From Micromonospora sp. WMMD1120 (GTDB lineage Bacteria > Actinomycetota > Actinomycetes > Mycobacteriales > Micromonosporaceae), in NCBI RefSeq assembly GCF_029626235.1, contig NZ_JARUBO010000005.1, positions 3,752,501-3,816,500 on the forward strand: a stretch of 64,000 nucleotides of DNA. Reading direction: 5' to 3'. The position numbers were made by a program, and so were the translations under genes. The first letter of the stretch is position 1, and each line of letters starts with the position of its first letter. The notes beneath the pieces are model-generated. The model searched no databases. It was not told the DNA's origin and worked only from the letters and a program-made list of their open reading frames with translations. Shown here piece by piece: positions 7,508 to 59,240 of the stretch.

Positions 7508-7531
7508 CCGGTTCCGCGGGGCCGGTTTCTG

Positions 7532-7547
7532 TCGTACACCTGTTCTA
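7532..7547. promoter_or_regulatory. Candidate LexA (SOS) box before the 13E12-type HNH gene
   Basis: TCGTAC-ACCT-GTTCTA matches the actinobacterial SOS box TCGAAC-N4-GTTCGA at 10 of 12 defined positions. It overlaps the TAGAAT -10 box (7546-7551) of the gene at 7558. Members of the 13E12 family in Mycobacterium tuberculosis are known LexA targets. Confidence 0.6.
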
Positions 7548-7557
7548 GAATTTGCTG

Positions 7558-8808
7558 GTGATCGATGAGTTGGCGCGGGCGGAGGCTGCGGTCGCGGCCT
7601 GCGCCGACGCCCCGGCCTGGGCGCTCGCCGAGCGCGATCTGATCACGGTGCTCGACGCCACGCACCGGGTGCAGCAGCGCCTCGCGGCGGTGCAGGTGGC
7701 GGTGGTCCGCGAGCTGGACGGGCGGGGCACGGCGGTCGAGCGGGGCGCGTCCTCGACGACGGTGTGGCTGCGCGAGCGCCTGCGCCTCGATGTCTCGGCC
7801 GCGCGCCGGCTGGTCGGCCTCGCGGCCTCGCTCGACGTCGCGCCGCCCGGGGTGCGCGCGGCGCTCGCCGACGCGAGCGTCACCGTGGAGCAGGCCCGGG
7901 TCATCGCCGACACCGCCGCCACGGTGTCGGTGACGGCCGGGCCGGAGGTCGCCGACAAGGCCGTCGATGTGCTCGTCGATTGGGCGCGGCGGTTCGATCC
8001 GACAGTGCTGCGCCGGTTGGGCACCCGGATTCTCGACCACGTCGCGCCCGACCTCGCCGACGCCGCCGCGAGGGCCGCGCTGGCCGCCGAGGCCGACCGC
8101 GCCGCCCGGGACCGGCACCTCACCCTCTCCACCCGGGCCGACGGCCGCCTACGCCTCACCGGCACCCTCGACGCCGAGACCGCCGGCCTGCTCCGCGCCG
8201 CGATCGACCCGCTGAGCGTGCCCGCCGGCCCCGACGACACCCGCTCACCCGAGCAACGCCGCCACGACGCCCTCGCCGACGTGTGCCGCCTCGCCCTACG
8301 CACCGGCGACCTGCCCGAGCACGGCGGCGACCCCGCCCAGGTCGTCATTACCACCGGTTATGACGCGTTGGCCGGTCAGGTGGGCGCCGGAGCGCTCGAC
8401 ACCGGCCTGCACCTCACTCCCGACACCGTGCGCCGGCTCGCCTGCGACGCCACAGTCCTGCCCGCCGTCCTCGGCGGCGCCGGCCAGGTCCTCGACGTCG
8501 GCCGACAACGCCGACTCGTCACCGGCCCCCTGCGCCGGGCCCTCATCCTGCGTGACGGCGGGTGCGCCTTCCCCGGCTGCGACCGGCCACCACGCTGGTG
8601 CGACGCCCACCACATCCGGCACTGGGCCGACGGCGGCACCACCAGCCTCGACAACGCCGTCCTGCTCTGCGGTCACCACCACCGCCACCTCCACCGGACG
8701 CAGTGGAGAGTCCGGCTCGGCGACGACGGACACCCGGAGTTCGTCCCACCCGCCTGGCTCGACCCCGACCAGCTTCCGCGCCGCAACCACTACCACCGAC
8801 GAACATAG
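7558..8808 (+). CDS. DUF222/13E12 family HNH endonuclease
   Basis: A 416-residue protein with an N-terminal helical DUF222 domain (about 1-290, including RVQQRLAAVQVAVVRELD and SAARRLVGLA) and a C-terminal HNH nuclease domain (about 320-395): CAFPGCDRPPRWCDAHHI, HWADGGTTSLDNAVLLC, GHHHRHLH. The HNH motif binds a metal and cleaves DNA; the biological target of this family is unknown. Start: GTG 7558 lies six nucleotides after TAGAAT, giving a leaderless message; TTG 7552 and CTG 7555 are in frame but would overlap the promoter. The candidate LexA box suggests induction by DNA damage. A GC-rich tandem repeat begins just after the stop codon. Confidence 0.88.
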   Translation: MIDELARAEAAVAACADAPAWALAERDLITVLDATHRVQQRLAAVQVAVVRELDGRGTAVERGASSTTVWLRERLRLDVSAARRLVGLAASLDVAPPGVRAALADASVTVEQARVIADTAATVSVTAGPEVADKAVDVLVDWARRFDPTVLRRLGTRILDHVAPDLADAAARAALAAEADRAARDRHLTLSTRADGRLRLTGTLDAETAGLLRAAIDPLSVPAGPDDTRSPEQRRHDALADVCRLALRTGDLPEHGGDPAQVVITTGYDALAGQVGAGALDTGLHLTPDTVRRLACDATVLPAVLGGAGQVLDVGRQRRLVTGPLRRALILRDGGCAFPGCDRPPRWCDAHHIRHWADGGTTSLDNAVLLCGHHHRHLHRTQWRVRLGDDGHPEFVPPAWLDPDQLPRRNHYHRRT

Positions 8809-10448: not shown

Positions 10449-11078
10449 ATGGCCTTGCGACCCGACGAGTTCTACGACCACGCGCTCGCCGCAGCGGACG
10501 ACGAGCGTCGGCTGCCCCTGGCACGGATGACGGGGTGGGACATCAGTCCGTTCGAGCCGGACGGGCTGCGCGTCGCGTCGCTGCGACCGCCGGTGCTCCC
10601 GGAGCCGCCCCGGCACGGCGAGGACGCCGCGAGCTGCGACCTCTGCCGCCAGCGCGACGACGGCATCTGGTTCAACGAGCGGTGGCGGCTCACCCGGGTC
10701 CAGGGGGTGGGCGTCCCGCTGGTGCTCATGCTGTTGCCGCTCGACCACCACGACATGGCGGATCTGCCGGACGAGCTGGCCGCCGAGCTGGGGTTGTTGA
10801 GCACCCGGATCGTCCGTCACGTGCAGGCGCTCCCGCACATCTCGCGGGCGCACGTCTACCGCTTCGGGGACGGCGCCGCCCACCTGCACGTCTGGTTCTT
10901 CGCCCGGCCCGCCGGGCAGGCCCAGTTGTTCGGGTCGTGGCTGGTCGCCTGGGACGACCTGCTGCCGGAGTATCCGGCGGACCTGGCCGACGCGGACGCC
11001 GCGCTGGTGGCGGACGCGTTGGTCGCGTCCCATGGCGGCCGTCGGGTGTCGGACCCGGCGGCTAGCCTGCCGGCATGA
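10449..11078 (+). CDS. HIT-like family protein
   Basis: A 209-residue cytoplasmic protein with a HIT-type fold. The key segment is HISRAHVYRFGDGAAHLHVWFFARP (about 128-152), in which HLHVW corresponds to the His-x-His-x-hydrophobic nucleotide-phosphate site of the histidine-triad superfamily; the third His of a strict triad is replaced by Trp/Phe. An upstream CDLCRQRDDGIWFNERW segment (about 64-80) resembles the N-terminal part of HIT proteins. Typical relatives hydrolyse or transfer nucleotidyl groups; activity here is uncertain because the triad is incomplete. ATG 10449 follows TAGCCT by seven nucleotides. It overlaps the next gene by four nucleotides. Confidence 0.65.
   Translation: MALRPDEFYDHALAAADDERRLPLARMTGWDISPFEPDGLRVASLRPPVLPEPPRHGEDAASCDLCRQRDDGIWFNERWRLTRVQGVGVPLVLMLLPLDHHDMADLPDELAAELGLLSTRIVRHVQALPHISRAHVYRFGDGAAHLHVWFFARPAGQAQLFGSWLVAWDDLLPEYPADLADADAALVADALVASHGGRRVSDPAASLPA
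11063..11068 (+). promoter_or_regulatory. -10 box of a leaderless promoter inside the end of the HIT gene
   Basis: TAGCCT with six nucleotides to the ATG at 11075, so the YdeI-like gene may be transcribed independently of the gene it overlaps. Confidence 0.4.
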
Positions 11079-25367: not shown

Positions 25368-26288
25368 TCAGTAGCGGGCGAAGGAGCGGATCGGCGCGCG
25401 CGGGCCGTACTTCGGCGCCTGGATGCCGGCGGCTGCCAGCAGGAGACACACCCGACCCCGGTGACCTCGGAACGGCTTCAGCAGCTCCAGCAGCCGGGCG
25501 TCGTCGCCCCTGGGCTCGCCCGCCAGCGCCCAGGCCACGGTGTTCGGGATGTGGTAGTCCCCGACGCTCACCGCGTCCGGGTCCCCGTACGCGATCCGGA
25601 CCACCTCGGCGGCGGTCCAGGGGCCGATGCCCGGGATGGCCGTCAACCGGCGGGTGGCCTCGGCGGTGTCGACGCAGCGCTCCAACCGGTCGGCGAGCGC
25701 CGCGGCGCGGCGGAGCGTGTCGGCCCGCCGCTGCTCCACCCCGAACGGGTGGAACACCCAGTACGGGGTGGCGGCGACGGCGGCGGGTGTGGGCGGCAGG
25801 AGCAGCGGCTGGAACGGACCGGGCGCCGGCTCCCGGAAGTGCCGCACGGTGGCCGCGTACGCCCGGTAGGCCTCCTTGCCGGTGACCTTCTGCTCGAAGA
25901 TCGCCCGCAGCAGCCGGGGAAACACCTGCCCGGTCGCGGGCATCCGGAGCCCGCGGTGCTCCCGGGCCAGCCGGGCGACCACCGGGTGCGCCTCGGCCAG
26001 CTCGGCGAAGCCGGTCAGGTCGTCGCGGAGCCCCGCGATCGCGTCGGCGCGGGCCAGGACGTGCTCGGCGCCCGGCCCGTAGCCCTCGGCGAGCAACGCG
26101 CCGTCGGCGGGCCGCAGCGCGAGCGTGGCCGGCCCGTCCGGGGTACGGGTGGCCCACCAGAACGTGCCGGCGGCCACCCGGGCGCACGGGTCGTACGGGC
26201 TGAAGGTGAGCGCGTGGACCGAAGCGGCCAGCCGGTAGCCGACCGGAGGGTGCAACACCCTGGTCGCGGCGGCTTCGGTGGCGGTCAC
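25368..26288 (-). CDS. AlkA-type DNA-3-methyladenine glycosylase
   Basis: A 306-residue base-excision repair enzyme that removes alkylated purines from DNA. The N-terminal part resembles the AlkA domain (LHPPVGYRLAASVHALTFSPYDP), and the helix-hairpin-helix glycosylase core follows: RAIFEQKVTGKEAYRAY (about 142-158), the hairpin LTAIPGIGPWTAAEVVRIAYGDPDAV (about 218-243) and the catalytic Asp in VGDYHIPN. No Cys cluster for an iron-sulfur centre is seen, in line with AlkA rather than MutY/Nth. The start GTG 26288 (VTATEAAATRV) was chosen because upstream in-frame starts extend into a terminator. It is convergent with the DUF1990 gene. Confidence 0.88.
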   Translation of the reverse strand: MTATEAAATRVLHPPVGYRLAASVHALTFSPYDPCARVAAGTFWWATRTPDGPATLALRPADGALLAEGYGPGAEHVLARADAIAGLRDDLTGFAELAEAHPVVARLAREHRGLRMPATGQVFPRLLRAIFEQKVTGKEAYRAYAATVRHFREPAPGPFQPLLLPPTPAAVAATPYWVFHPFGVEQRRADTLRRAAALADRLERCVDTAEATRRLTAIPGIGPWTAAEVVRIAYGDPDAVSVGDYHIPNTVAWALAGEPRGDDARLLELLKPFRGHRGRVCLLLAAAGIQAPKYGPRAPIRSFARY

Positions 26289-26312
26289 CCGCCCACTCTG
26301 CCACGTGCCGGA

Positions 26313-26347
26313 CGGGACGCCGGCACCACCGGTGTGCCGACGTCCCG
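26313..26347 (-). terminator. Terminator after the secreted-repeat lipoprotein gene
   Basis: Interrupted perfect stem: CGGGACG-C-CGGCAC (26313-26326) pairs with GTGCCG-A-CGTCCCG (26334-26347), a 13-bp stem with one C/A bulge. It lies about 70 nt past the lipoprotein stop codon. Confidence 0.6.
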
Positions 26348-26416
26348 GGTACGACGGTGGCCGGCCGCGCCCTCCCCGGCGACGACCGACCACCGTGACC
26401 TCGCGGCGATCCGGGC

Positions 26417-27064
26417 TCAGTACGAGTAGCCCGACCCGCCCGCGTCGCTGGCGCCGCTGTTCGACGGGGGCGCGACAGCCTTCGGCGTGGAGGTGGGCAG
26501 GCAGCTCAGGTTCTTCTTGCCGTCCGGCTGGACCACGAACCAGGTGCCGCCGACGGCCTGACCCTTCCACTGGCCGGGCTTCTTGTCGCCGATGTAGCGG
26601 TACACCGGCCAGCCGCCGATGGTGAGCTGGCGGGTGCCGTCCTGACGGGTCACGCTGCCGACCTTGTCGTCGGAGACGCCGGTCAGCTGCGGGTTGCCGT
26701 CGGTCAGCGACGGCGGCCACACCTCGGCGCACTTGTCGACGCAGTTCGACGACGGCGGGTCGGCGGTGTCCTTGTCGAAGCGGTACAGGATCCAGCCGTC
26801 CTCGTCGGTGACCACCTTGCCCATCCGGGGGACGCTCTTGCCGGTCAACTTCTCGGTCAGGTCGACGTTCGCGGGCGGGGCCTCGGCGGCCGGCGCCTCG
26901 GCGGACGGCGACGCCTCCGCCTCGACCGATGCGGTGGGCTCGGCCGCGGCGACGGCGACCGGCTCCGCCGCGCTCGAGTTCGCGGGGTCGTAACCCGCGG
27001 GAGCGCAGGCCGTAAGTGCGACCATCGCGCTCGCGACGATGACGGTCCGCTTCATCTGTGCCAC
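26417..27064 (-). CDS. Lipoprotein with secreted repeats of unknown function (PF03640 type)
   Basis: A 215-residue exported lipoprotein. The signal peptide ends at VALTAC (Cys20), followed by an Ala/Glu/Pro-rich low-complexity linker (about 30-65). Two copies of the PF03640-like repeat follow: GWILYRFDKDTADPPSSNCVDKCAEVWPP (about 89-117) and WPVYRYIGDKKPGQWKGQAVGGTWFVV (about 152-178). Family function is unknown. Starts: GTG 27064 has AGGAGG with a four-nucleotide gap; the ATG at 27055 is also possible. The upstream promoter (27097-27126) matches that of the neighbouring ECF sigma operon, so the gene is a probable target of that sigma factor. Confidence 0.85.
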   Translation of the reverse strand: MAQMKRTVIVASAMVALTACAPAGYDPANSSAAEPVAVAAAEPTASVEAEASPSAEAPAAEAPPANVDLTEKLTGKSVPRMGKVVTDEDGWILYRFDKDTADPPSSNCVDKCAEVWPPSLTDGNPQLTGVSDDKVGSVTRQDGTRQLTIGGWPVYRYIGDKKPGQWKGQAVGGTWFVVQPDGKKNLSCLPTSTPKAVAPPSNSGASDAGGSGYSY

Positions 27065-27096
27065 GTGCCCTCCTCATTCTTGGCAGTTCGCCCATT

Positions 27097-27126
27097 GGTA
27101 CGGCGGGCAGACTGTCAAGGTTGAAC
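27097..27126 (-). promoter_or_regulatory. ECF-type promoter of the lipoprotein gene
   Basis: On the minus strand GTTCAACC (27126-27119), exactly 16 nt, then CGTACC (27102-27097). The same spacing and hexamer occur before the sigma factor gene (28795-28824). Confidence 0.6.
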
Positions 27127-27219
27127 GAGTAACAGTGGTCAATTTCACTGAGGTTGATCTGAACCGAACGGGGCTGTGCTGCGTACGCCCCCGCGAACGG
27201 TTCCGCCGGCAACGACAGA

Positions 27220-27254
27220 TCGGCGCCGGCCATTGTGACAATGACCGGCGCCGA
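27220..27254 (-). terminator. Terminator of the sigma/anti-sigma operon
   Basis: A 35-nt near-perfect hairpin: TCGGCGCCGG-C-CATTGT, G loop, then ACAATG-A-CCGGCGCCGA, with one C/A mismatch. It starts 13 nt after the anti-sigma stop codon. Confidence 0.75.
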
Positions 27255-27267
27255 CAGCGTACGCGGA

Positions 27268-28050
27268 TTACAGCGGTACGGTGACCAGCGGACTCGCCAC
27301 GCCATTGGCGTCCACCGACTGCACCTGGAGTTGCTTGATGTCGGTCGTCAGGGCCGACGTCGACGCGCTCAGCTCAAGGCCCTGCGGCCGGGTGTTGGTG
27401 CCGTAACCGCCCTCCGGCACCGACCAGGTGGAAATGACCTCGGTGCTGGCATTTTTGCGCACCACCACCAGTCGGCAGACCCGCGGCCCGGGCAACCTCC
27501 GCATGCTGAAGTTGATCCGGGTGCCGTACTCCCGCTTCACCAGGAACATCGTCGTCTGCACGCCCGTCGTCGGGTCGGTCGCGTCGACCTGGTCGCCCTC
27601 CTCCTCGGTGCCGCCCACGCCCGGACCGCTCGGCGCGGCCGTCGGCCCGCTCGTCGGCGGGTCGCTCGGCGTGCTCGGCGTCGACTCGGCGAGCACCCCC
27701 GGCGGCTGCTCGTTTCCGGCCACCTGAACGAAGCCGTAGCCGCTCAGGCCACCGAACACCACCACCGCGGCGGCCGTCGCGAGCATCTGCCGGAACCGGG
27801 TACGTCGCCGGTCCGCCCGGACCGCGCCCAACGTCCGGTTCAGCAGACCCGGGTCGGTGGCGGTCTGCTCCAGCGCCATCATCGTCTCGCCGTCGATGTC
27901 GGAGAGCAGGCCGACCACCGGCACCATCGTCTCCAACTCGGCCGCACACGCCCAGCAGGTGGCGAGATGCTCCTCGAACCGCTCCGTGTCCTGCTCGTCG
28001 AGCACGCCGAGCGCGTACGCCGCGACGTCCATGTGATCCGGCCGGCTCAT
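27268..28050 (-). CDS. Zinc-binding anti-sigma factor (membrane-anchored)
   Basis: A 260-residue partner of the ECF sigma factor encoded directly upstream. The N-terminal ZAS domain shows H28-x3-C32-x2-C35 (EEHLATCWACAAEL), the motif that holds zinc and grips sigma. One membrane helix (about 89-109) follows, and an exported C-terminal domain (about 110-260) starts with a Pro/Ser/Thr-rich linker and ends in a beta-rich region (MFLVKREYGTRINFSMRRL, then LSASTSALTTDIKQLQVQSVDANG). The exported part probably senses an envelope signal. Its ATG overlaps the sigma stop (ATGA), so both are made in step. A terminator follows. Confidence 0.9.
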   Translation of the reverse strand: MSRPDHMDVAAYALGVLDEQDTERFEEHLATCWACAAELETMVPVVGLLSDIDGETMMALEQTATDPGLLNRTLGAVRADRRRTRFRQMLATAAAVVVFGGLSGYGFVQVAGNEQPPGVLAESTPSTPSDPPTSGPTAAPSGPGVGGTEEEGDQVDATDPTTGVQTTMFLVKREYGTRINFSMRRLPGPRVCRLVVVRKNASTEVISTWSVPEGGYGTNTRPQGLELSASTSALTTDIKQLQVQSVDANGVASPLVTVPL

Positions 28051-28739
28051 TCTGTCACCCCCCGCTCCTGCAGAGCCGTGCGCAGCGCGCGCAGCGCGTA
28101 GTAGACCCTCGACTTGGCCGTGCCGAGCGGCAACCCCAACTCCTCGGCCGCCTCCGGCACCGTCCGCCCCCGGAAGTACGTCGAGATCAGGATCTCCCGG
28201 TGCGACTGACTGAGCGTACGCAGGGCGTCCGCCACCGTCATCGTGCGCAGCACCCGTTCGGTGCTGTCCGCCTCGGCGAACGCGGTGAGGTCACGGTCGT
28301 ACGTCTCCGGCGGCCGGGCCTCCTGGCTGCGGTGCTCGTCGATGGCGATGCGCCGGGCCACGGTGACCAACCAGGGCCGCAACGAACCCTGCCCCTGGGT
28401 GCCCAGGCGGTGCGCGTTGCGCCACGCCCGCAGCAGCGTCTCCTGGACGATGTCCTCCGCGCGCTGCCGGTCCCCCCCGGTGAGGCGCATGACGAACATC
28501 AGCAACGGACCGGCGTGCTCGGCGTAGAGCTGCCTGATCAACTGGTCGGAGTGGTTGGCCTCGGTGGACGTCGCCTGATGGCGTCCGGGCGCCGGTCGGG
28601 GCGTCACCGGACCATTCTGGCGAGACGTCGCCCGCGCGTCGACCCCCCGGGCAGACGAGGTCGACCGTGACGTCGGCCGCGCTGACAACCAGTCAGCGCG
28701 TACCGCGTCGCCGTGCCAACCGGCCGCCACTGCGTGCAT
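28047..28739 (-). CDS. ECF RNA polymerase sigma factor (SigL-like)
   Basis: A 230-residue extracytoplasmic-function sigma factor. Region 2 lies at about 65-135 (LIRQLYAEHAGPLLMFVMRL, AEDIVQETLLRAWRNAHRL, RPWLVTVARRIAIDEHRS) and region 4 at about 165-225 (LRTLSQSHREILISTYFRGRTVPEAAEELGLPLGTAKSRVYYALRALR). The first 60 residues are extra and basic. The ATG at 28739 has GGAGG five to six nucleotides before it; a GTG at codon 45 is the alternative. The promoter at 28795-28824 has the same form as that of the lipoprotein gene, which suggests autoregulation. Confidence 0.9.
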   Translation of the reverse strand: MHAVAAGWHGDAVRADWLSARPTSRSTSSARGVDARATSRQNGPVTPRPAPGRHQATSTEANHSDQLIRQLYAEHAGPLLMFVMRLTGGDRQRAEDIVQETLLRAWRNAHRLGTQGQGSLRPWLVTVARRIAIDEHRSQEARPPETYDRDLTAFAEADSTERVLRTMTVADALRTLSQSHREILISTYFRGRTVPEAAEELGLPLGTAKSRVYYALRALRTALQERGVTE

Positions 28740-28794
28740 GCAGACCTCCGGGATTTCCGTGACCGACGCCGGCCCATGAGGCGGGCCGCCCGGT

Positions 28795-28824
28795 GGTACG
28801 CACGACCGACCGGAACGGATCAAC
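28795..28824 (-). promoter_or_regulatory. ECF-type promoter of the sigma/anti-sigma operon
   Basis: On the minus strand GTTGATCC (28824-28817), exactly 16 nt, then CGTACC (28800-28795). Compared with the lipoprotein promoter two of the eight -35 bases differ and the -10 hexamer is identical. Confidence 0.6.
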
Positions 28825-28861: not shown

Positions 28862-29719
28862 TCAGCGGCGTACCGAGAAAAGGCCCGGCGGTGGCGGGTC
28901 GGAGCCGGTGGCGTCGGCGTCCCGCACGACCGCCGCGCCGCCGGCGAACCGGTCCAGCTCGTCGCCGGCCACCACCCGACCGGGGAACCAGTCGCCGGCG
29001 GCACGCCGGGACAACTCCGGAACCGGTGGTGTGGTCCGCCCCGCGACCAGCACCAGGTTTCCGTACCGCCGCCCGCGCAGCACCGCCGCGTCACCCACCA
29101 GGCACGCCTGCGGCAGCACCGAGCGGACCGTGGCCACCTGCCCGCGGGCGTGCCGCAGCGGCGGGCCGTCGGCCAGGTTCGCCAGGTACCACCCGGTGGG
29201 GCGCAGCACCCGGGCCACCTCGGCGGCATACTCCACCGAGGTCAGGTGCGCCGGGGTACGCGCGCCGGCGAACACGTCGGCGACCACCACGTCGTAACTC
29301 GCCTCCCGGGTGGCCGCCAGCACGGCCCGCGCGTCCTGCACCCGGACCCGCAACCGCCCGTCCGACGGCCACGGCGCCACCCGGCGGACCAGCTCCACCA
29401 GAGCGCCGTCCACCTCGGACACCCGCTGGGTGGACCCCGGCCGGGTGGCCGACACGTACCGGGGCAGGGTCAGGGCCCCGCCACCCAGGTGCAGCACCCG
29501 CAGCGGTACGCCGGCCGGGGCGATCAGGTCGACGGCGGCGGCCAGCCGCCGGACGTACTCGAACTCCAGGTGCGTGGGGTCGGTCAGATCGACGTGCGAC
29601 TGCGGCGCGCCGTCCAGCAGCAGCGTCCACGAACCGGGCCGGTCCGGGGCCGGGACCAGCTCCGCCAGCCCGGTGTCCACCTGCTCGACCACCCGGTCAC
29701 CGGCCCGCTTACGCCCCAT
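28862..29719 (-). CDS. Spermidine synthase-like SAM-dependent methyltransferase fold protein
   Basis: A 285-residue protein of the polyamine-synthase-like branch of Rossmann methyltransferases. The nucleotide-binding segment is LRVLHLGGGALTLPRYVSATRPGSTQRVSEVDGALVEL (about 74-111), with the acidic strand end EVD, then RVQDARAVLAATREASYDVVVADVFAGA (about 128-155). Spermidine synthases use decarboxylated SAM; key polyamine residues cannot be confirmed here, and many actinobacterial members are uncharacterised. The ATG at 29719 is 15 nt from the end of the NurA-like gene, so it is the last cistron of the herA-sbcD-sbcC-nurA operon. Whether it has a DNA-related job is unknown. Confidence 0.82.
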   Translation of the reverse strand: MGRKRAGDRVVEQVDTGLAELVPAPDRPGSWTLLLDGAPQSHVDLTDPTHLEFEYVRRLAAAVDLIAPAGVPLRVLHLGGGALTLPRYVSATRPGSTQRVSEVDGALVELVRRVAPWPSDGRLRVRVQDARAVLAATREASYDVVVADVFAGARTPAHLTSVEYAAEVARVLRPTGWYLANLADGPPLRHARGQVATVRSVLPQACLVGDAAVLRGRRYGNLVLVAGRTTPPVPELSRRAAGDWFPGRVVAGDELDRFAGGAAVVRDADATGSDPPPPGLFSVRR

Positions 29720-29734
29720 CGCGGATCCCCACCC

Positions 29735-30703
29735 TCACCGGGCCGCGCGGGCCGCGGCGGTCAGCGCGCGGTGCAGCAGCCGGGCATCGCCGAGCAGGGC
29801 CCGCAGCCTGCGCTCCAGGCCGGCGATCGGGATCAGGTTCTGCGGGGCCCGCGGGTCCTTGTAGGGCGTGGAGGCGAAGCGGGGCAACGTCACCAGCGAC
29901 AGGTCGGCCAGCTCGATCGCCGCCTCGACGGGCAGGTCGGGGGAGCACTCCACCCGGACGATCCCGGCCCACGGCGCGCCCACCGCCACCGGCAGCCGCA
30001 AATACCACGACCAGCCACCCCAGGCGGTGCCCAGCCGGAACACCGGCGACCGCTCACCGGACGCCAGGCCGGTCACCACCGCCGTCAGCCGGGCGTCCAG
30101 ATACTGACTGTGCTGCGTCTTGATGTAGCCCAGGGTGCGGGGCAACTGCCGGCGACTACGCAGCGGACCGTCCACCACCAGCAGGTCGCCGTCCACCCGC
30201 GCGGCGTCGGAGACCGCCACCTCCAACGCGGTCAGCGGGGCCTGCACCGCCGCCGGCAACTTCGCCAACTCACCGGAGCCACCCACCCGGTGCACCGGGT
30301 ACCGGACCGCGCCCGCCACCACGTCCTGCGCCGACGGGCTCGCCGTGAACAGCCCCCGGCCCACCCGGGTGCCCGCCAACTGCGCCGCGCCGTTACCCAG
30401 GTCGCACCGGACCACCCCGGCCGCGTACGAGGCGGCCAACCCGGGAAACGAGCCGCCGTCGGTCTCGGCCGTCCAGATGCTCGCGTCGATCCGGCGGACC
30501 CCGTCGACGAGCAACACCACGTCCGGCGCCCGCACCCCGGGGCGTACCCCGATCGCCCGCCAGTCCACAGCGGGCAGCTCCACGTCCGCGTCGACCTGCT
30601 GGCTGCTCGGCGCGGCCGGGCCGGCGGCGGACGCCTCGAACGACGCCCCGTAGGCCGGGTCCCACGAATCGACGAAGAACGAGGCGTCGCTCCTCGCGCT
30701 CAC
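29735..30703 (-). CDS. NurA-like nuclease domain protein
   Basis: A 322-residue protein whose context and motifs suggest a NurA-type 5'-3' nuclease. Key points are an Asp at residue 67 in VVLLVDGVRRIDA, a second at about 178 in DLLVVDGPL, LGYIKTQHSQYL (Lys195), and the end segment RAPQNLIPIAGLERRLRALLGD; NurA enzymes carry two such acidic sites for manganese and a late conserved helix. It is encoded directly after sbcC with a four-nucleotide overlap (GTGA) in an operon with HerA-, Mre11- and Rad50-type genes, as in archaea. The first 14 nt from GTG 30703 equal the start of a repeat found at 56848, so a slightly later start is possible. Family assignment was made by eye. Confidence 0.62.
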   Translation of the reverse strand: MSARSDASFFVDSWDPAYGASFEASAAGPAAPSSQQVDADVELPAVDWRAIGVRPGVRAPDVVLLVDGVRRIDASIWTAETDGGSFPGLAASYAAGVVRCDLGNGAAQLAGTRVGRGLFTASPSAQDVVAGAVRYPVHRVGGSGELAKLPAAVQAPLTALEVAVSDAARVDGDLLVVDGPLRSRRQLPRTLGYIKTQHSQYLDARLTAVVTGLASGERSPVFRLGTAWGGWSWYLRLPVAVGAPWAGIVRVECSPDLPVEAAIELADLSLVTLPRFASTPYKDPRAPQNLIPIAGLERRLRALLGDARLLHRALTAAARAAR

Positions 30704-33174
30704 CGGCCGGTCCGTTCCACGCGGGCGGACCGGGCGTCCTTGCGCACCTCGAAGCGGACCGGAATCCGCTCGGCCAGCGCCGACACGTGGGTCACCACGC
30801 CGACCATCCGGTCGCCCCTGGCGGCCAGGTTCTCCAGTGTGGCCGCCACCGTGTCCAGGGTGGCGGCGTCCAACGTGCCGAAGCCCTCGTCCAGGACGAT
30901 CGACTCCAGGCTCGCCGCCGTCGTCGACATCCCGGCCAACTGCTCGGAGAGCGCCAACGCCAGCGCCAGCGACGCCTGGAACGTCTCGCCGCCGGAGAGG
31001 GTCCGCACACCCCGACGCAGGCCCGCGTCGTGGTGGTCGACGACGGCGAACTCGCCCTTGTCGTGCACCAGCTCGTACTGCCCGCCGGAGAGCTCCCGCA
31101 GGATGCCCGACGCGCCGTCGACCAGCAGGTCCAGCGCCTCGGCCAGCAGCCACCGCTCGAAGTTGTTGGCCCGCAGGTGCCCGGCGAGGGCGCGGGCGAC
31201 CCGCGCCTCCCGCTCGTGCCCGGCCCGCTGCTCGCGCAGCTCCCCGGCCTGCTCCCGGCGCTCCACCAGTCGCCGGCGGTCCGCGTCGGCCCGCTCCACC
31301 GCGACGGTCGCCGCGTGCACCGGATCGTCGCCGACCGGCACGTCGGCCGCCGCGAAGAGCGCCGCCATGTCCCGCTGCACCGCCTCCGCCACGGCCTCGG
31401 CCTCGGCGACGGCGGCGGCCCGGCCGGCCCGATCGGCGCGCCGCCGGTCCGCCTCGGCTGTCGCCCAGCCGGTCAGCGCCGTCCACGCGGCGGCCACGTC
31501 GTCCCGGTCGGCCGCCGGTGGACCGAAGCGGGCCAGCCCGTCCCGGGTGGTGTCGAAGGCACGCCACCCGGCCCGCAGCCGCTCCTCCGCGGCGTCCACA
31601 CCGGCCCGGGCCCGGCGCGCGGCCTCCCGGCCGGCCCGGACCGCCGTCGCCGCCTCCTCCAGGGCCCCGCGCAACCGGGCGTGCTCGGCCAACTCCCGCC
31701 GCAGCACAGCCGGCTCGGCCGCACCGGCGAGCTGATCGTCCAACTCGGCCAGCCGGGCCTCCAACTGCTGCTGCTGGGCCCGCGCCCGCACCAGCAGGCG
31801 CTCCAACTCCCGGGCCGCCTCGTCCCGTTGCCGCACCGCCGCCTGCGCGGCCTTCGTCGCGGCCCGGGCCGCCTTGCCCGCCGCCGTCGCCGCCACCACC
31901 GCCGAATCGGCGGGCACCGCCGGCACCCGCGCCACCGGCTGCTCGCACACCGGGCAGGCCGCGCCCTCGTGCAGGTGCACCCGCAGGCTGACCGCCAGAT
32001 CGGTGGCCTTCGCCTCCTCGTGCGCCCGGAACGCCGCCTCCAACGCGGCGTCGGCCCGCTCGGCGTCCGCGCGGGCGGCCTCCAGGGCGGCCACCGCCGT
32101 CGCGTGCTCGTCGTCCGCCGTGCGCACCGCCGCGCGGACCGTGTCGGCCTCGCCGGCCAACCGGTCCCGATCGTCGTACGCCCGCAGCAGCAGTCGCAGC
32201 GCGCTCTCGTCGCCGGCGCCGGCCAACTCGCCGCGCAGCTTGTCCTCGCGCTCCTCGGCCAACGCCACGGCGGTGGCCGCCGCCTCGGCGTCGGCCCGCG
32301 CGGCGGTGACCGCGCGCGCCACGGCGGCCACCCCGGCCGGCGCGCGTACCCCTGTCAGCACGGCCAGCTCGTCGTCGAGAGCGGTCAGCGCCGCCGTCGC
32401 CTCCCGTGCGGCGACCCGGGCCGCCGACAACCGCGGCACCGCGGCGGTCACGGCGGCGGCCAGCTCGGTCATCCGGTCGACCCGGGCGTCGGCCTCGGTC
32501 AACGCCTCGTCGCCCACGTCGGCCAGCCCGGCGAGGACCTGGTCGACCGCCTCCAACCGGGCGTCCGCCTGCGCCGCGCGGGCCGTCGCCCGCTTCTGCA
32601 CCTCCTCGTAGACGCCGAGGCCGAGCAGATTGACCAGGATCTGCTGCCGGGTCGCCGGCTTGGCGTGCAAAAAGTCGGCGAACTGCCCCTGCGGCAGCAC
32701 GACGCAGCTGGTGAACTGCTCGTACGGCAGCCCGACCGCCTCCAGCACCGCCTGCTCCATCTCGGCGGGGGTGCCGGCCAGCACCTCGCCGAGGTCGTCC
32801 GGGCTCAGGCCGGTGTCCAGTTTGGTCACGTCGAAGCCGGCGGGCATCACCTGCAAACCGGCGTTCGCGGTCTTGACGTTGCCCCGGCCGTCCCGGCGCA
32901 CCACCCGGGTCGCCACGTACCGGGCGCCGCCGGACTCGAAGACCAACCGCACCCGCGCCTCGGTCGCCGACGGCGCCAGCGCGTTCGCCAAACCCCGGGT
33001 CCCGCCCCAGCGGGGCACCGTGCCGTAGAGGGCGAAACAGATGGCGTCCAGCACCGTGGACTTGCCGGAGCCGGTGGGGCCGATCAGGGCGAAGAAGTCG
33101 GCGTCGGTGAAGTCGATGGTGGTCTCGTCCCGGAAGACGGTGAACCCGGCCAGGTCCAGACGCATCGGACGCAT
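30700..33174 (-). CDS. sbcC: SbcC/Rad50-type ATPase subunit of exonuclease SbcCD
   Basis: An 824-residue SMC-like ATPase that with SbcD opens and resects DNA ends and hairpins. The N-terminal head has Walker A GPTGSGKST (about 31-39) and Q-loop VVLPQGQFADFLHA; long coiled coils rich in Ala/Glu/Arg run on both sides of a zinc hook CPVC at 407-410; the C-terminal head has LSGGETFQASLALALALSEQL and Walker B IVLDEGFGTLD. It is shorter than E. coli SbcC (over 1,000 residues), i.e. it has shorter arms. Its ATG overlaps the sbcD stop, and its stop overlaps the NurA-like start. Confidence 0.93.
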   Translation of the reverse strand: MRPMRLDLAGFTVFRDETTIDFTDADFFALIGPTGSGKSTVLDAICFALYGTVPRWGGTRGLANALAPSATEARVRLVFESGGARYVATRVVRRDGRGNVKTANAGLQVMPAGFDVTKLDTGLSPDDLGEVLAGTPAEMEQAVLEAVGLPYEQFTSCVVLPQGQFADFLHAKPATRQQILVNLLGLGVYEEVQKRATARAAQADARLEAVDQVLAGLADVGDEALTEADARVDRMTELAAAVTAAVPRLSAARVAAREATAALTALDDELAVLTGVRAPAGVAAVARAVTAARADAEAAATAVALAEEREDKLRGELAGAGDESALRLLLRAYDDRDRLAGEADTVRAAVRTADDEHATAVAALEAARADAERADAALEAAFRAHEEAKATDLAVSLRVHLHEGAACPVCEQPVARVPAVPADSAVVAATAAGKAARAATKAAQAAVRQRDEAARELERLLVRARAQQQQLEARLAELDDQLAGAAEPAVLRRELAEHARLRGALEEAATAVRAGREAARRARAGVDAAEERLRAGWRAFDTTRDGLARFGPPAADRDDVAAAWTALTGWATAEADRRRADRAGRAAAVAEAEAVAEAVQRDMAALFAAADVPVGDDPVHAATVAVERADADRRRLVERREQAGELREQRAGHEREARVARALAGHLRANNFERWLLAEALDLLVDGASGILRELSGGQYELVHDKGEFAVVDHHDAGLRRGVRTLSGGETFQASLALALALSEQLAGMSTTAASLESIVLDEGFGTLDAATLDTVAATLENLAARGDRMVGVVTHVSALAERIPVRFEVRKDARSARVERTGR

Positions 33175-34322
33175 CAGTGCTCGACCTCCTCGAACAGCTC
33201 GTCGAAGAGCTCCCGGACGCCCTCGTCGTCGTGGCCACGGCTGTCCAGGTAGTCGCCGAACAACTCCCGGGGCGAACGCCCGGACCGCTGCGCGACGCGC
33301 GCTCCGCTGCCCGGAGCGGCCAGCAGCTCCGGGTCGATCCGGATCTCCAGCGCCCGGGGGAGCAGCTCCTGGACCTCCTCACGCAGACCCGCGCGGGGCT
33401 GCTCCCGCACAAACACCCGCAGCCAGGCGTCCGGCGCCTCGATCTCGGCGAGCTGGGCCAGGGTGCCGCGCACCGTCCGCAGCGCGCTCGCCGCGGTCAC
33501 CGGCACCTCCCGCACCCGGGCCGCGGTGCTGGCCGTCACCTCCACCACAGTCACCGAGGGGACGTTCTCCTGCTCGCCGAAGTCCACGGCGAGCGGGCTG
33601 CCGCTGTAGCGCACCGGGCAGGGCCCCTCGACCCGCTGCGCCCGGTGCAGGTGGCCCAGCGCCACGTAGTGCGCGGTGGCCGGAAACACGGTGGCCGGCA
33701 CGGCGTAGCCCAGCACGGTGTGCGCGTCGCGCTCGCCACCACCGGCGGCGGCGCCGGTCACCGTCAGGTGCGCGGTCACCAGGTGCACCCGGTCCGGTTC
33801 GGTGAAACCCTCGGTGAGCCGCCCCAGCACCCGGCCCAGGTGGTCGGCGTACGTCTGGTTGGCCTCGGCGGCGGTCAGCTCGTACATCTCCAGCGCGCGG
33901 ACCGCGTAGCGCTGGGACAGGAACGGCAGCGCGGCCAGCCGCCAGCGCTCCCCGTCGGCGGTGACGCCGTCGATCACGTGCTCGTCCGGGTTTTCCCGCA
34001 CGCTGCCGCGCAGCGTGATGCCGGCGGCCTCCGCCCAGGGACGCAACGCGTCCAGCGCCGGGCCGTTGTCGTGGTTGCCACCGATCGCGACCACGTCCGC
34101 GCCGGTGCGCCGCAGCGCCGTCAACGCCCGGGTGACCAGGCGGGTCGCCTCCGAGGTGGGGGCGGCCGTGTCGTAGAGGTCACCCGCGACGATCACCAGA
34201 TCCGGCTGCTCGGCGCGGGCGATGTCGATCACCCCGGCCAGCACGGCCTTGTGCTCCTCGGCCCGGGACTGCCCCTTGAGCACCTTTCCCACGTGCCAGT
34301 CGGAGGTGTGCAGGATCTTCAT
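33174..34322 (-). CDS. sbcD: SbcD/Mre11-type nuclease subunit of exonuclease SbcCD
   Basis: A 382-residue metallophosphoesterase nuclease. All five phosphoesterase motifs are visible: LHTSDWHVGK (4-13), VIVAGDLYD (about 44-52), IGGNHDN (about 83-89), VTAHL (about 185-189) and ALGHLHRAQ (about 223-231). The C-terminal capping domain follows, ending FDELFEEVEH. The enzyme cuts DNA endonucleolytically and digests 3'-5' with manganese. It begins 18 nt after the herA-like gene and overlaps sbcC, so it is the second gene of the resection operon. Confidence 0.93.
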   Translation of the reverse strand: MKILHTSDWHVGKVLKGQSRAEEHKAVLAGVIDIARAEQPDLVIVAGDLYDTAAPTSEATRLVTRALTALRRTGADVVAIGGNHDNGPALDALRPWAEAAGITLRGSVRENPDEHVIDGVTADGERWRLAALPFLSQRYAVRALEMYELTAAEANQTYADHLGRVLGRLTEGFTEPDRVHLVTAHLTVTGAAAGGGERDAHTVLGYAVPATVFPATAHYVALGHLHRAQRVEGPCPVRYSGSPLAVDFGEQENVPSVTVVEVTASTAARVREVPVTAASALRTVRGTLAQLAEIEAPDAWLRVFVREQPRAGLREEVQELLPRALEIRIDPELLAAPGSGARVAQRSGRSPRELFGDYLDSRGHDDEGVRELFDELFEEVEH

Positions 34323-34340
34323 GGGTGTGCCGGCCCCCAG

Positions 34341-36095
34341 CTAGAACGGGATGTCGTCGTCGGTGCCGCCGCGACCGGAACCCACCACGGCGAACGGATC
34401 GGCGGACTGGGTGATCGAGCGCAGCGTCTCCGATGGCGCCCGGCCCGCCTCGGAGACCCGGGTGGCCCACGCCGGGAACGGGAACTCCAGGCAGAGCGGG
34501 ACCGGGATGTCCGGCTGGTTGACGAACATGGTGCCCGGCTTCGCCAGCAACGCGCGTTGGCGCTGCGCGGGTGGGAGGAAGCCGTATTCCGGGCGGGACG
34601 CCTCGGCCGGGTCGAGCCGACCGACCACCCGGATCGCCGAGTTGGTGACGATCCGCCGCTCCACCTCGCTCGCCGTCTGCTGCGCGCCGATCAGGATCAC
34701 ACCGAGTGAGCGGCCCCGCTCGGCGATGTCGAGCAGCACCTCCTTGATCGGGGAGGAGCCCTCGCGGGGGGCGTACTTGTTCAACTCGTCGAGGACCACG
34801 AAGAGCAACGGCTTCGCGGTGCCCGCCTTCTCCTTGCGCTCGAACTCGCTCTTCAGCGTCACACCGACCACGAACCGCTGCGCGCGGTCCGGCAGGTTGT
34901 GCAGGTCGACCACGGTGACCTGGGCCGACTCGCTGGTGTTGATCGAGTGCGGGCGGCGGGCGGCGAGATCGCCGCGGATCAGCCGGGCGAGGTCCTTCTT
35001 GCTGCCGATCAACCGCCGGGCGAACGCGTTGACGGTGCCCAGACCCACCGCGCTGCCCGCCCAGTCGGAACGGGTCTCGTCGTCGTTGAGCTGGTCGACG
35101 ATGTGGTCGACCAGGTCGCCGTACGAGCCCAGCCGGACCCCGTCGATGCTCACCCCGCCGTCGGCGGGCTGGGCGTGGCGGGCCAGGTGCGCGGCCACCG
35201 AGTGGACCACCATCGTGTACTGCTGGCGCTCGTCGTCGGCGTCGGCGAAGACGTACGGCAGCAGCCGGTCGGCGCAGAACTCGCTCAACGTCCAGTAGAA
35301 CGAGTCCACCCCGGTCAGCCGGCTGCTGACATCCGGGGTGCCGGCCGCGTCACCGACCCGGGGCGGCGCGTAGACCCGGACGTCGGGGAAGGCCCCGGCG
35401 TTCAGGCCGAGCTTCGCATACGCCGCGCGGGTGGGCTCGTCCAGCCGCGTGTTGGGGTGGTCGAGGAAGAGCAGGTCCTCACCCTTGACGTTGAAGATCA
35501 GCGCCTTGGCGTTGACCGCGTCGCCGCCCAGCACGCCGGAACGGAAGACCGAGTAGAGCAGGAAGGTGGCGAAACTGGTCTTGGTGGCCACCCCGGAGAT
35601 GCCGGAAATGGAGACGTGCGCGCCCCGGCTGCCGTCGAGGAAGTCGGCGTTGAGGTAGACCGGCACCCCGTCCCGACCCATCCCCATCGGAATGCGTCGC
35701 TCCATCCGGTCGAAGTGCAGCGCGCGGGCCCGCGCGTCGCCCTCGGCCCGGTGCACCACCGCGCCCGGTGTCGGCGGCACGTAGAGCTCCGGGTCGACCC
35801 GGGTGGTGGTGATCTCGGCTGCCTCCTGCACCATTGCCGGCAGTGTGCCGTCGGCGATGGCGAACACGTCGGAGTCGAACTGGGCGCCCTCGTGCCGGGC
35901 GCGCACCTGGGTGACCACGCCGGCGATCGTCACCGGCTCGCGGTCGGGCAGGTCCCGTCGGGTGACCACCACGTCGTCGAGCTGGAGATAGCTGCCGGGG
36001 GTCACGGCCGTCCAGAACTGCAACGGGGTGGCGTCGGCGGTGCCCAGCACCCGCCCGACCGCCTCGCCCGGAGTGTCGAGGTCGGCGTCGGTCAT
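34341..36095 (-). CDS. HerA-like DNA-translocating ATPase (DUF87)
   Basis: A 584-residue hexameric-type ATPase of the HerA/FtsK superfamily, expected to pump double-stranded DNA to a nuclease. The N-terminus is a HAS-barrel (GRVLGTADATPLQFWTAV to VVTQVRARHEGAQF, about 14-73). The ATPase core has SISGISGVATKTSF (162-175), a Walker A in which the usual Gly before Lys is Thr171, then Walker B LLFVVLDELN (Asp436, Glu437), sensor Gln residues in IGAQQTASEVERR, and a likely arginine finger there. The altered P-loop needs checking for activity. It is the first gene of the operon with sbcD, sbcC and the NurA-like gene. Confidence 0.85.
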   Translation of the reverse strand: MTDADLDTPGEAVGRVLGTADATPLQFWTAVTPGSYLQLDDVVVTRRDLPDREPVTIAGVVTQVRARHEGAQFDSDVFAIADGTLPAMVQEAAEITTTRVDPELYVPPTPGAVVHRAEGDARARALHFDRMERRIPMGMGRDGVPVYLNADFLDGSRGAHVSISGISGVATKTSFATFLLYSVFRSGVLGGDAVNAKALIFNVKGEDLLFLDHPNTRLDEPTRAAYAKLGLNAGAFPDVRVYAPPRVGDAAGTPDVSSRLTGVDSFYWTLSEFCADRLLPYVFADADDERQQYTMVVHSVAAHLARHAQPADGGVSIDGVRLGSYGDLVDHIVDQLNDDETRSDWAGSAVGLGTVNAFARRLIGSKKDLARLIRGDLAARRPHSINTSESAQVTVVDLHNLPDRAQRFVVGVTLKSEFERKEKAGTAKPLLFVVLDELNKYAPREGSSPIKEVLLDIAERGRSLGVILIGAQQTASEVERRIVTNSAIRVVGRLDPAEASRPEYGFLPPAQRQRALLAKPGTMFVNQPDIPVPLCLEFPFPAWATRVSEAGRAPSETLRSITQSADPFAVVGSGRGGTDDDIPF

Positions 36096-36243
36096 CGGGC
36101 GAGGCGGGTCGGTCGGGCACTACGGTCGGCACGCATGCAGTGCATCCTGCCCGAGGAGTACGACAGGTCGCCACGCGACGCGGCGGAGGACACCAGACGC
36201 CGTCACACCGGCGACGGTGGGTGTGCGGCCGGACGACCGCCGG

Positions 36244-57686: not shown

Positions 57687-59240
57687 GTGCGGATCCTCGA
57701 CTCCGCGCCGCCGGGTCTGTCGGACCGGCGGCGTCGCCTGCTGCTGGACGTGCTGCTCTGGGTGGTGGTCGCCGCCCCGGTCGGCTACGCGGGGGTCAGC
57801 CCGCCCTACCCGGGGTACGCGGTTCCGCTGCTGGCCGGCAAGCTGCTGGTGCTCGCCGTGGCGGTGCTGGCGAGTCGGCGGCATCCGCTGGTCGCCGTGG
57901 TGCTGGTGCTGCTCGGGCCGCTGGTCGACGGCAACTTCGTGTTCGCCATCCCGGTGTTCAGCTATCTCGCGGGCCGGCGCGGCACCGGCGTCGGCCCGGC
58001 GGTGACGGTCTTCCTGCTGGTCGCGGCGGGCGGCACGGCGCTGAACCTGGTGCTGCTCGGCACCGGCGCGGCCACCTGGTTCCTGCTCGCCTCGGTGCTG
58101 CTCTTCGCCGCCGTGTTCCCCTGGCTGGTCGGGCGGTACCGGCGTCAGCAGCGGGAGTTGGCCGACGCGGGCCGCCGGCACGTCGAGGCGTTGGTTCGTG
58201 AGGAGCGCGGCGCAGCCGAGCGGATCCGGCTGCGGGAGCGGGCGCGGATCGCCGGCGAGATGCACGACTCCCTCGGTCACGACCTGAGCCTGATCGCGCT
58301 GCGCGCCGCCGCCCTGGAGGTCGCCGCCGACCTGGACGACCGGCACCGGGTCGCGGCGGGGGAGTTGCGGGCCAGCGTCTCGGCCGCCACCGAGCGGCTG
58401 CACGAGATCATCGGGGTGCTCCGGGAGGACTGTGGCGGGTCGCTGCGCCCGAGTGGGGAGACCGTCGCCGACCTGGTCGACGGCGCCCGGGAGGCGGGCC
58501 TGGCGGTACGGCTGGACGCCGCCCCGGCGGTCGCCGAGCTGCCGGCGATGACCGGTCACGCGGCGCACCGCGTGGTCCGGGAGGCGTTGACGAACGCGGC
58601 CCGGTACGCGCCGGGCGCCGCCGTCGACGTACGCCTGACGCGGGACGGTGACCGGGTCGCGGTGAGCGTGGTCAACGACGCCGCGCCGGCCGGGCCGCTG
58701 CCCGGACCACGGTCGCGGGGCAGTGGGCTGCTGGCGCTCGCCGAGCGGGTTCGGCTCGCCGGCGGGACGCTCGACGCCGGTCACCGGCCCGATGGCGGTT
58801 TCGCGGTGCGGGCGGTGTTGCCGGCCACCGCGCCGCCGCCGGACGCGATCGAGCCGGGCGCACCTGCCGAGGAGCCGCTCGGTCGCCCGGAGCGGGGGCT
58901 GGAGGCCGAGCGGCGGCTGCACGACGCCCGTCGCCGGGTCCGGCGCAGCCTGCTCGTGGCGCTCCTCGCGCCGGCCGGCTTCGCTCTGGTGCTCTCGCTC
59001 GTCTACTACCCGGTGGCGACCGCGGGAACGGTGCTGGACCGGGCCACCTTCGAGCGGATGCCCGTCGGTACGGCCCGTGCCGACCTGGCCGGGCTGCCCC
59101 GGCGGCAGGTGGAACGCCCGATGTCGGACGACCGGTCGGACTGCGAGTACTACACCGACGGGAACTTCCCCCTCGCGCAGCCGACCTGGCGGCTGTGCTT
59201 CACCGATGGTCGGCTGACCAGCAAGGAGTGGATCGCGTAG
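57687..59240 (+). CDS. NarL-type sensor histidine kinase with C-terminal exported domain
   Basis: A 517-residue membrane kinase. Five or so N-terminal membrane helices (about 17-150) are followed by the HisKA_3 dimerisation segment with His193 ([20 protein letters not shown]) and the HATPase domain ([35 protein letters not shown], to about 375). Unlike typical members, another 110 residues follow: a linker helix, a sixth membrane helix (about 418-440), then an exported segment with [18 protein letters not shown] and [13 protein letters not shown], reminiscent of SmpA/BLIP-type folds. The response regulator gene starts at its stop codon. Confidence 0.9.

Follow-up and report, generated by a model that had tools for sequence, protein, structure and literature searches.

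Operons that unite herA, mre11, rad50 and nurA are established in archaea, as reported in PMC12977600, PMC4663267 and PMC2288612. The closest bacterial systems are the NurA-HerA complex of Deinococcus radiodurans (structure 7f6d; PMC9960219) and the locus of Oceanithermus profundus, where nurA-hepA(herA) has sbcD and sbcC downstream, as outlined in PMC5448004. The locus considered here belongs to Micromonospora sp. WMMD1120 and lies in a 64-kb window (assembly GCF_029626235.1, contig NZ_JARUBO010000005.1, positions 3,752,501-3,816,500), to which all coordinates refer. Five open reading frames at 28862-36095, all on the minus strand as described in the first-pass annotation, comprise herA, sbcD, sbcC, nurA and a fifth gene, with spacings of -4 to 18 nt: herA and sbcD are separated by 18 nt, sbcD and sbcC overlap by 1 nt, sbcC and nurA overlap by 4 nt, and 15 nt lie between nurA and the fifth gene. 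This gene partnership, best known from archaea, recurs across Actinomycetota, here in a soil actinobacterium, and the operon probably encodes a damage-inducible machine for DNA end processing. No report of the four-gene linkage in Actinomycetota was recognised among open-licence PMC articles.

The locus resembles the archaeal operons in having the same four functions in one operon. The first-pass annotation had also called it archaeal-style, a label that is unsupported for protein type, because HerA and NurA are of the bacterial type of Deinococcus and Thermotoga. With O. profundus it shares a bacterial HerA-NurA pair linked to SbcCD, and there herA precedes sbcD and sbcC as in the nurA-first actinobacterial loci described below; the phylum is different, however, and the window's order is herA-sbcD-sbcC-nurA, as in most complete actinobacterial loci. 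Compared to the D. radiodurans system, the NurA fold, its catalytic Asp, Lys and Arg and the HerA pore residues are alike, whereas a single operon with SbcCD, a damage-type promoter site, AdnAB-like genes in the same genome and only partly kept acidic interface residues set the Micromonospora system apart.

Identity of the Four Core Proteins

Residues 9-550 of HerA (34341-36095, minus strand, 584 aa) match the D. radiodurans HerA of structure 7f6d (phmmer, E 1.6e-149, 502 bits). Residue mapping places its Walker B residues D436/E437 at drHerA D487/E488 and its pore residues R444 and R501 at R495 and R552, so that the near full-length match, the Walker B motif and the pore arginines together assign it to the HerA family as a predicted DNA translocase. 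SbcD (33174-34322, minus strand, 382 aa), the Mre11-type nuclease subunit, reaches 176.4 bits against the TIGR00619 cut-off of 77.65, matches the solved SbcD chain 4lty with E 4.4e-35 and is the sole match of the genome at E <= 0.001. SbcC (30700-33174, minus strand, 824 aa), the Rad50-type ATPase, is related to TIGR00618 at 264.9 bits (E 1.5e-78), below the curated cut-off of 478.5, and also matches AAA_23 and SbcC_Walker_B; Walker A, a CPVC zinc-hook-like motif, an LSGGE signature and Walker B can be read in its sequence. A phosphoesterase SbcD beside an ABC ATPase with a putative zinc hook is what defines an SbcCD/Mre11-Rad50 pair, and the pair is assigned as such, as the first-pass annotation had proposed together with HerA.

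The nurA gene (29735-30703, minus strand, GTG start) encodes a 322-aa protein that matches the 7f6d NurA chain with E 5.2e-21 and Thermotoga NurA (1zup) weakly, with E 0.12 (phmmer). A profile built from 26 actinobacterial NurA sequences recovers both, with E 1.1e-55 and 8.4e-19, respectively. Residues D67, K195 and R285 correspond to the catalytic D53, K201 and R309 of drNurA and are conserved in 58 of 58 sequences; the numbering of the 7f6d chain is that of the paper plus 20, as deduced from these three residues. The second VDG aspartate, to which the first-pass annotation had drawn attention along with the first, is D178. At the N-terminus, a strand covers residues 8-12 and W14 is found in 57 of 58 sequences, the alignment to drNurA leaving out the drNurA N-terminus (W8, pin). 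The protein has the RNase H-like fold with C-terminal helices seen in 7f6d and 1zup, and both the fold and the catalytic residues agree with a NurA nuclease of bacterial type; a non-nuclease fold was not found.

The window's NurA has no match in Pfam, NCBIfam or PADLOC, and PF09376, the NurA model by which the first-pass annotation had expected it to be recognised, has no match anywhere in the genome. Of the 26 alignment members, which include the window's protein, PF09376 matches 18 at the lax threshold of E <= 1, with a best value of 2.1e-6; the protein of the window is not among these 18. No relevant NCBIfam model was found at E <= 1 for the 26 members.

Linkage and Inheritance

HerA was searched in 296 genomes of the phylum, where 63 matched at E <= 1e-30 and 99 at E <= 0.001, the latter figure including many weak matches of FtsK-like type, and in 393 genomes of the window's own class, where 23 matched at E <= 1e-30. 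For comparison, 60 loci of at most 20 kb each were taken from 40 of 62 other phylum genomes and 20 of 23 class genomes. In 51 of these, herA, sbcD, sbcC and nurA occur together, 37 in the window's order and 14 as nurA-herA-sbcD-sbcC, some with inserts of 0.6-3.8 kb. Among the nine incomplete loci, five end at a contig border (L049, L053, L058, L069, L106) and L050 stops 2.1 kb past herA and lacks sbcD; G050 and G072 have sbcD on the strand of herA but 14 and 10.7 kb away, and G231 has it on a separate contig. A further 80 loci, the best 80 of a cross-phylum genome scan and all from Micromonosporaceae, hold all four genes in the window's order in 70 cases, the other 10 being cut at a contig end. 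The linkage anticipated for related genomes is thus conserved both within the window's class and in further classes of the phylum.

The 22 remaining phylum genomes comprise 14 that have NurA no more than 6.9 kb from herA on one contig, one with herA on a 4.7-kb contig and seven in a divergent family (f18). With f18 left out, 54 of 56 HerA-positive genomes have NurA, and in the other two the contig that carries HerA is 12 or 4.7 kb long; in one further genome the NurA match is only weak. Family f18 itself holds a second, remoter HerA lineage (~30% identity); where both genes were found, the NurA-like one stands immediately upstream (e.g., G011:C1:2818042-2820310). Two loci of one genus, L203 and L204, have long frames between herA and sbcD (e.g., L204:4616-6559); of six frames scanned in these inserts, one matches glycosyltransferases and five have no Pfam match.

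The between-locus distances of any one of the four genes are correlated with those of the others (Spearman 0.78-0.90, 55 loci; shuffles <= 0.28). On the HerA tree, which gave long-branch warnings, the own-class sequences group in a single clade that includes Micromonosporaceae, and the unrooted topology requires only one change between the two gene orders. The correlated distances, the single clade and the single order change suggest an old, mostly vertical inheritance of the four genes, with many losses in the class. Outside Actinomycetota, the distribution rests on plasmid records and papers, because the cross-phylum scan returned only Micromonosporaceae among its best 80.

A Damage-Type Element at the Operon Head

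About 70 nt before the herA ATG stands the element TGTCGTAC-N8-CAGGAT (36144-36165, minus strand), which is conserved in Micromonospora; Actinoplanes has a version, TTGTCGTAC-N8-CANNAT, closer to the herA start. The mycobacterial motif of LexA-independent damage induction is given as tTGTCRgtg-8 nt-TannnT (PMC5656591). The herA element resembles this RecA-NDp (PafBC) motif and is predicted to be a damage-type promoter. In the regulon comparison, TGTCG(G/T)AC-N8-YAnnnT stands here before recA, uvrA, uvrB, dinB and herA, whereas KAC replaces GTG and, before herA, C replaces T at the start of the -10 part.

In the genome (7.15 Mb), TGTCGKAC-N8-YANNNT matches at 31 sites, compared to two for the reversed control. 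Thirty of the 31 site loci were read: 13 fit a damage-related role, and 17 have no evident damage link or apparently lie inside reading frames (e.g., L210). Besides the five genes just named, the fitting sites precede greA, a Lhr-type helicase, a DEDD exonuclease/GIY-YIG protein, uracil and 3-methyladenine glycosylases, and three DUF222/13E12-like genes, one recognised by Pfam and two by eye.

A widened pattern occurs in 71 of 79 herA upstream regions of Micromonosporaceae (reversed, 0), and in the loci of this family it was found before none of sbcD, sbcC and nurA. Of the 14 nurA-first loci, none of which is from the window's class, four have it before nurA, as TGTCRTAC-N8-TAGCAT; these four belong to another class (L037, L038, L040, L042), with the site 28-48 nt upstream of the chosen nurA start. 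Where nurA is last, the pattern was never found before it. Where it occurs, the candidate promoter site thus tracks the operon head in both gene orders.

A LexA box was absent, by the patterns used, before herA in the window and in the 79 upstream regions, as was TTGTC[AG]GTG. Of the damage-motif-like sites in the window, the strongest is TGTCGTAC-N8-TAGAAT at 7530-7551 (+), directly before a DUF222/13E12-type gene (7552-8808, +; Pfam); elsewhere in the genome, such a site accompanies two further genes judged similar by eye. Another motif-like site at 11047 (+), with a score of 23.1, lies before a gene whose 207-aa product matches no NCBIfam model at E <= 1e-5.

Proposed Function and Alternative Explanations

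In the proposed mechanism, DNA damage would induce the operon and SbcCD would nick near blocked or hairpin ends, opening them for hand-over to HerA-NurA. A HerA hexamer would load on the duplex, form a complex with the NurA dimer and pump DNA into it, so that the two RNase H-like sites of the dimer could cut the threaded strands, possibly with the preference of D. radiodurans, where mainly the 5' strand is cut during translocation. A 3' tail would then remain for RecA, which amounts to a putative resection function. Two adjacent UvrD-type helicase/PDDEXK proteins of the same genome match a solved mycobacterial-type pair (E 6e-176 and below); we take these to be AdnAB, the names of the PDB entries being generic. 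As both are encoded in one genome, HerA-NurA-SbcCD is additional to the AdnAB-type machine, beside which it would work and not in its place, and a mutual exclusion of the two is false for this genome.

Several observations weigh against a damage-inducible end-processing machine. With regard to induction, none of the operon upstream regions contains TGTC[AG]GTG-N8-TANNNT, the motif in its exact mycobacterial form (0/79, 0/36, 0/14), and in the herA upstream regions of other families the widened form was found in 0/18 and 0/38 and the strict form in 1/18 and 0/38. The herA site scores 13.9, compared to 21.2-33.5 for the sites at repair genes that served to construct the matrix and 10.2 for the best site of the reversed window, and an unexplained motif-like site at 57718 (+) scores 16.9; moreover, the pattern was partly chosen after the herA, recA and 13E12 sites had been viewed and was widened after the alignment had been viewed. 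With regard to the machine, only one of three acidic interface residues of drHerA is kept (D78 as D76; E80 and D81 are replaced by F78 and A79), residues that are said to align poorly in other bacteria, and two plasmid copies adjoin defence-type genes. Finally, nurA/herA mutants of D. radiodurans and Thermus are described in PMC9960219 as having a modest or even an improved resistance to damage, and a 2026 study on archaeal HerA-NurA doubts a role in resection and argues for antiviral degradation (PMC12977600).

Among the alternatives, the one that survives best, although rather unlikely, is that two independent activities share the operon for co-regulation, SbcCD trimming hairpin or protein-blocked ends and HerA-NurA serving another task, such as the clearing of DNA at stalled forks, with no hand-over between them. 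It agrees with Thermus, for which PMC5448004 describes nurA-herA without adjoining sbcCD, and with the three genomes above in which herA and sbcD are 10.7 or 14 kb apart or on different contigs. On the other hand, the four genes are linked in two orders across many families, and a contact between Mre11 and HerA is reported in archaea (PMC4663267; PMC2288612), both of which speak against this alternative.

A role in genome defence is less probable still. HerA-NurA would here be a processive shredder of double-stranded phage or plasmid DNA, with SbcCD providing entry points and damage as the trigger. Nucleases are paired with HerA in known antiviral systems, and the archaeal study mentioned above proposes such a role. 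On a Streptomyces linear plasmid (L236:1-17641), herA-sbcD-sbcC-nurA adjoins type II Wadjet JetA2/B2/C2 and an IrrE-like protease. On plasmids of Aulosira laxa (a cyanobacterium) and Candidatus Chlorohelix (Chloroflexota) (L240:3672-12984, L241:3838-13152), genes for a sigma-like protein, an unknown protein and an IrrE-like M78 protease precede nurA, herA, sbcD and sbcC, and these first three cassette genes are also homologous between the two plasmids. The four genes, as nurA-herA-sbcD-sbcC, are also found on a conjugative plasmid of a cyanobacterium, and a Nostoc plasmid has nurA-herA, at which point its record ends. These mobile copies leave room for a defence role. They are few, however, as HerA relatives were found in 6 of 72,556 plasmid records (E <= 1e-30), one of which is 11.85 Mb long and probably a chromosome, and in 1 of 50,697 phage records (E <= 1e-20; 27% identity), while no HerA was confirmed among the pattern matches in viral contigs.

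Three proteins of the window also match components of the PADLOC mads system, namely the fifth protein (mad2, 30.5 bits), SbcC (mad3, 88.7 bits) and HerA (mad8, 33.5 bits), all with partial model cover. PADLOC HerA-system matches are weak, there are none for NurA, and SbcD matches no mads model. The partial mads matches were judged more likely to reflect a general likeness of the ATPase and methyltransferase superfamilies. That the four genes are widely linked and diverge in a correlated way also weighs against the defence explanation, as does a promoter pattern common to repair genes.

Lastly, although the same four-gene partnership exists in archaea and Deinococcus-Thermus HerA-NurA are said in PMC12977600 to derive likely from archaea, it is very improbable that the operon was recently acquired from archaea by horizontal transfer, since HerA and NurA are of bacterial type, SbcC and SbcD match bacterial families best, and the own-class HerA sequences form a single clade with Micromonosporaceae inside.

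The end-processing machine stays the preferred reading. More tentatively, and less likely than not, HerA-NurA-SbcCD could be a recurrent DNA-shredding cassette that moves between phyla, is wired to varied damage sensors and links break repair with defence; the varied sensors are suggested by the sigma-like, unknown and M78 genes or the IrrE-like protease and Wadjet on plasmids and by the damage-type element on chromosomes of Micromonosporaceae and at some loci of another class.

Fifth Gene and Flanking Genes

The fifth gene (28862-29719, minus strand) had been described as a methyltransferase-fold member of the module. Its product most resembles spermidine synthases (3gjy, E 3.4e-41; NF037959, E 1e-28), which corrects that description, and its membership does not hold: the gene follows nurA on the same strand in 35 of the 80 Micromonosporaceae loci, and as a fifth core partner it was rejected. 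It is a lineage-specific neighbour outside the conserved core.

Downstream, on the same strand, a pair of genes for an extracytoplasmic function (ECF) sigma factor and its anti-sigma factor (27268-28823, minus strand) is present in 55 of the 80 loci. The sigma gene (28047-28823; NF007227, E 1.4e-66) starts 38 nt from the fifth gene by its longest frame, and the true start may be later; the zf-HC2 anti-sigma gene (27268-28050, minus strand) matches NF052375 below its cut-off (E 1.5e-11) and PF13490 over it. Upstream, a RibD_C gene is found in 74 of the 80 loci. The conservation of these neighbours may be plain family synteny. Further downstream, a 645-aa frame (25368-27305, minus strand) matches DNA-3-methyladenine glycosylase 2 in its C-terminal part (NF007641, E 1.3e-10, below cut-off).

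Implications

The role of HerA-NurA is disputed between break resection for recombination and the destruction of foreign DNA. A widespread actinobacterial operon offers culturable hosts, such as Micromonospora, Salinispora and Actinoplanes, and the finding is useful because the disputed function becomes testable in them. The operon may also represent a further end-processing route in a phylum known for AdnAB.

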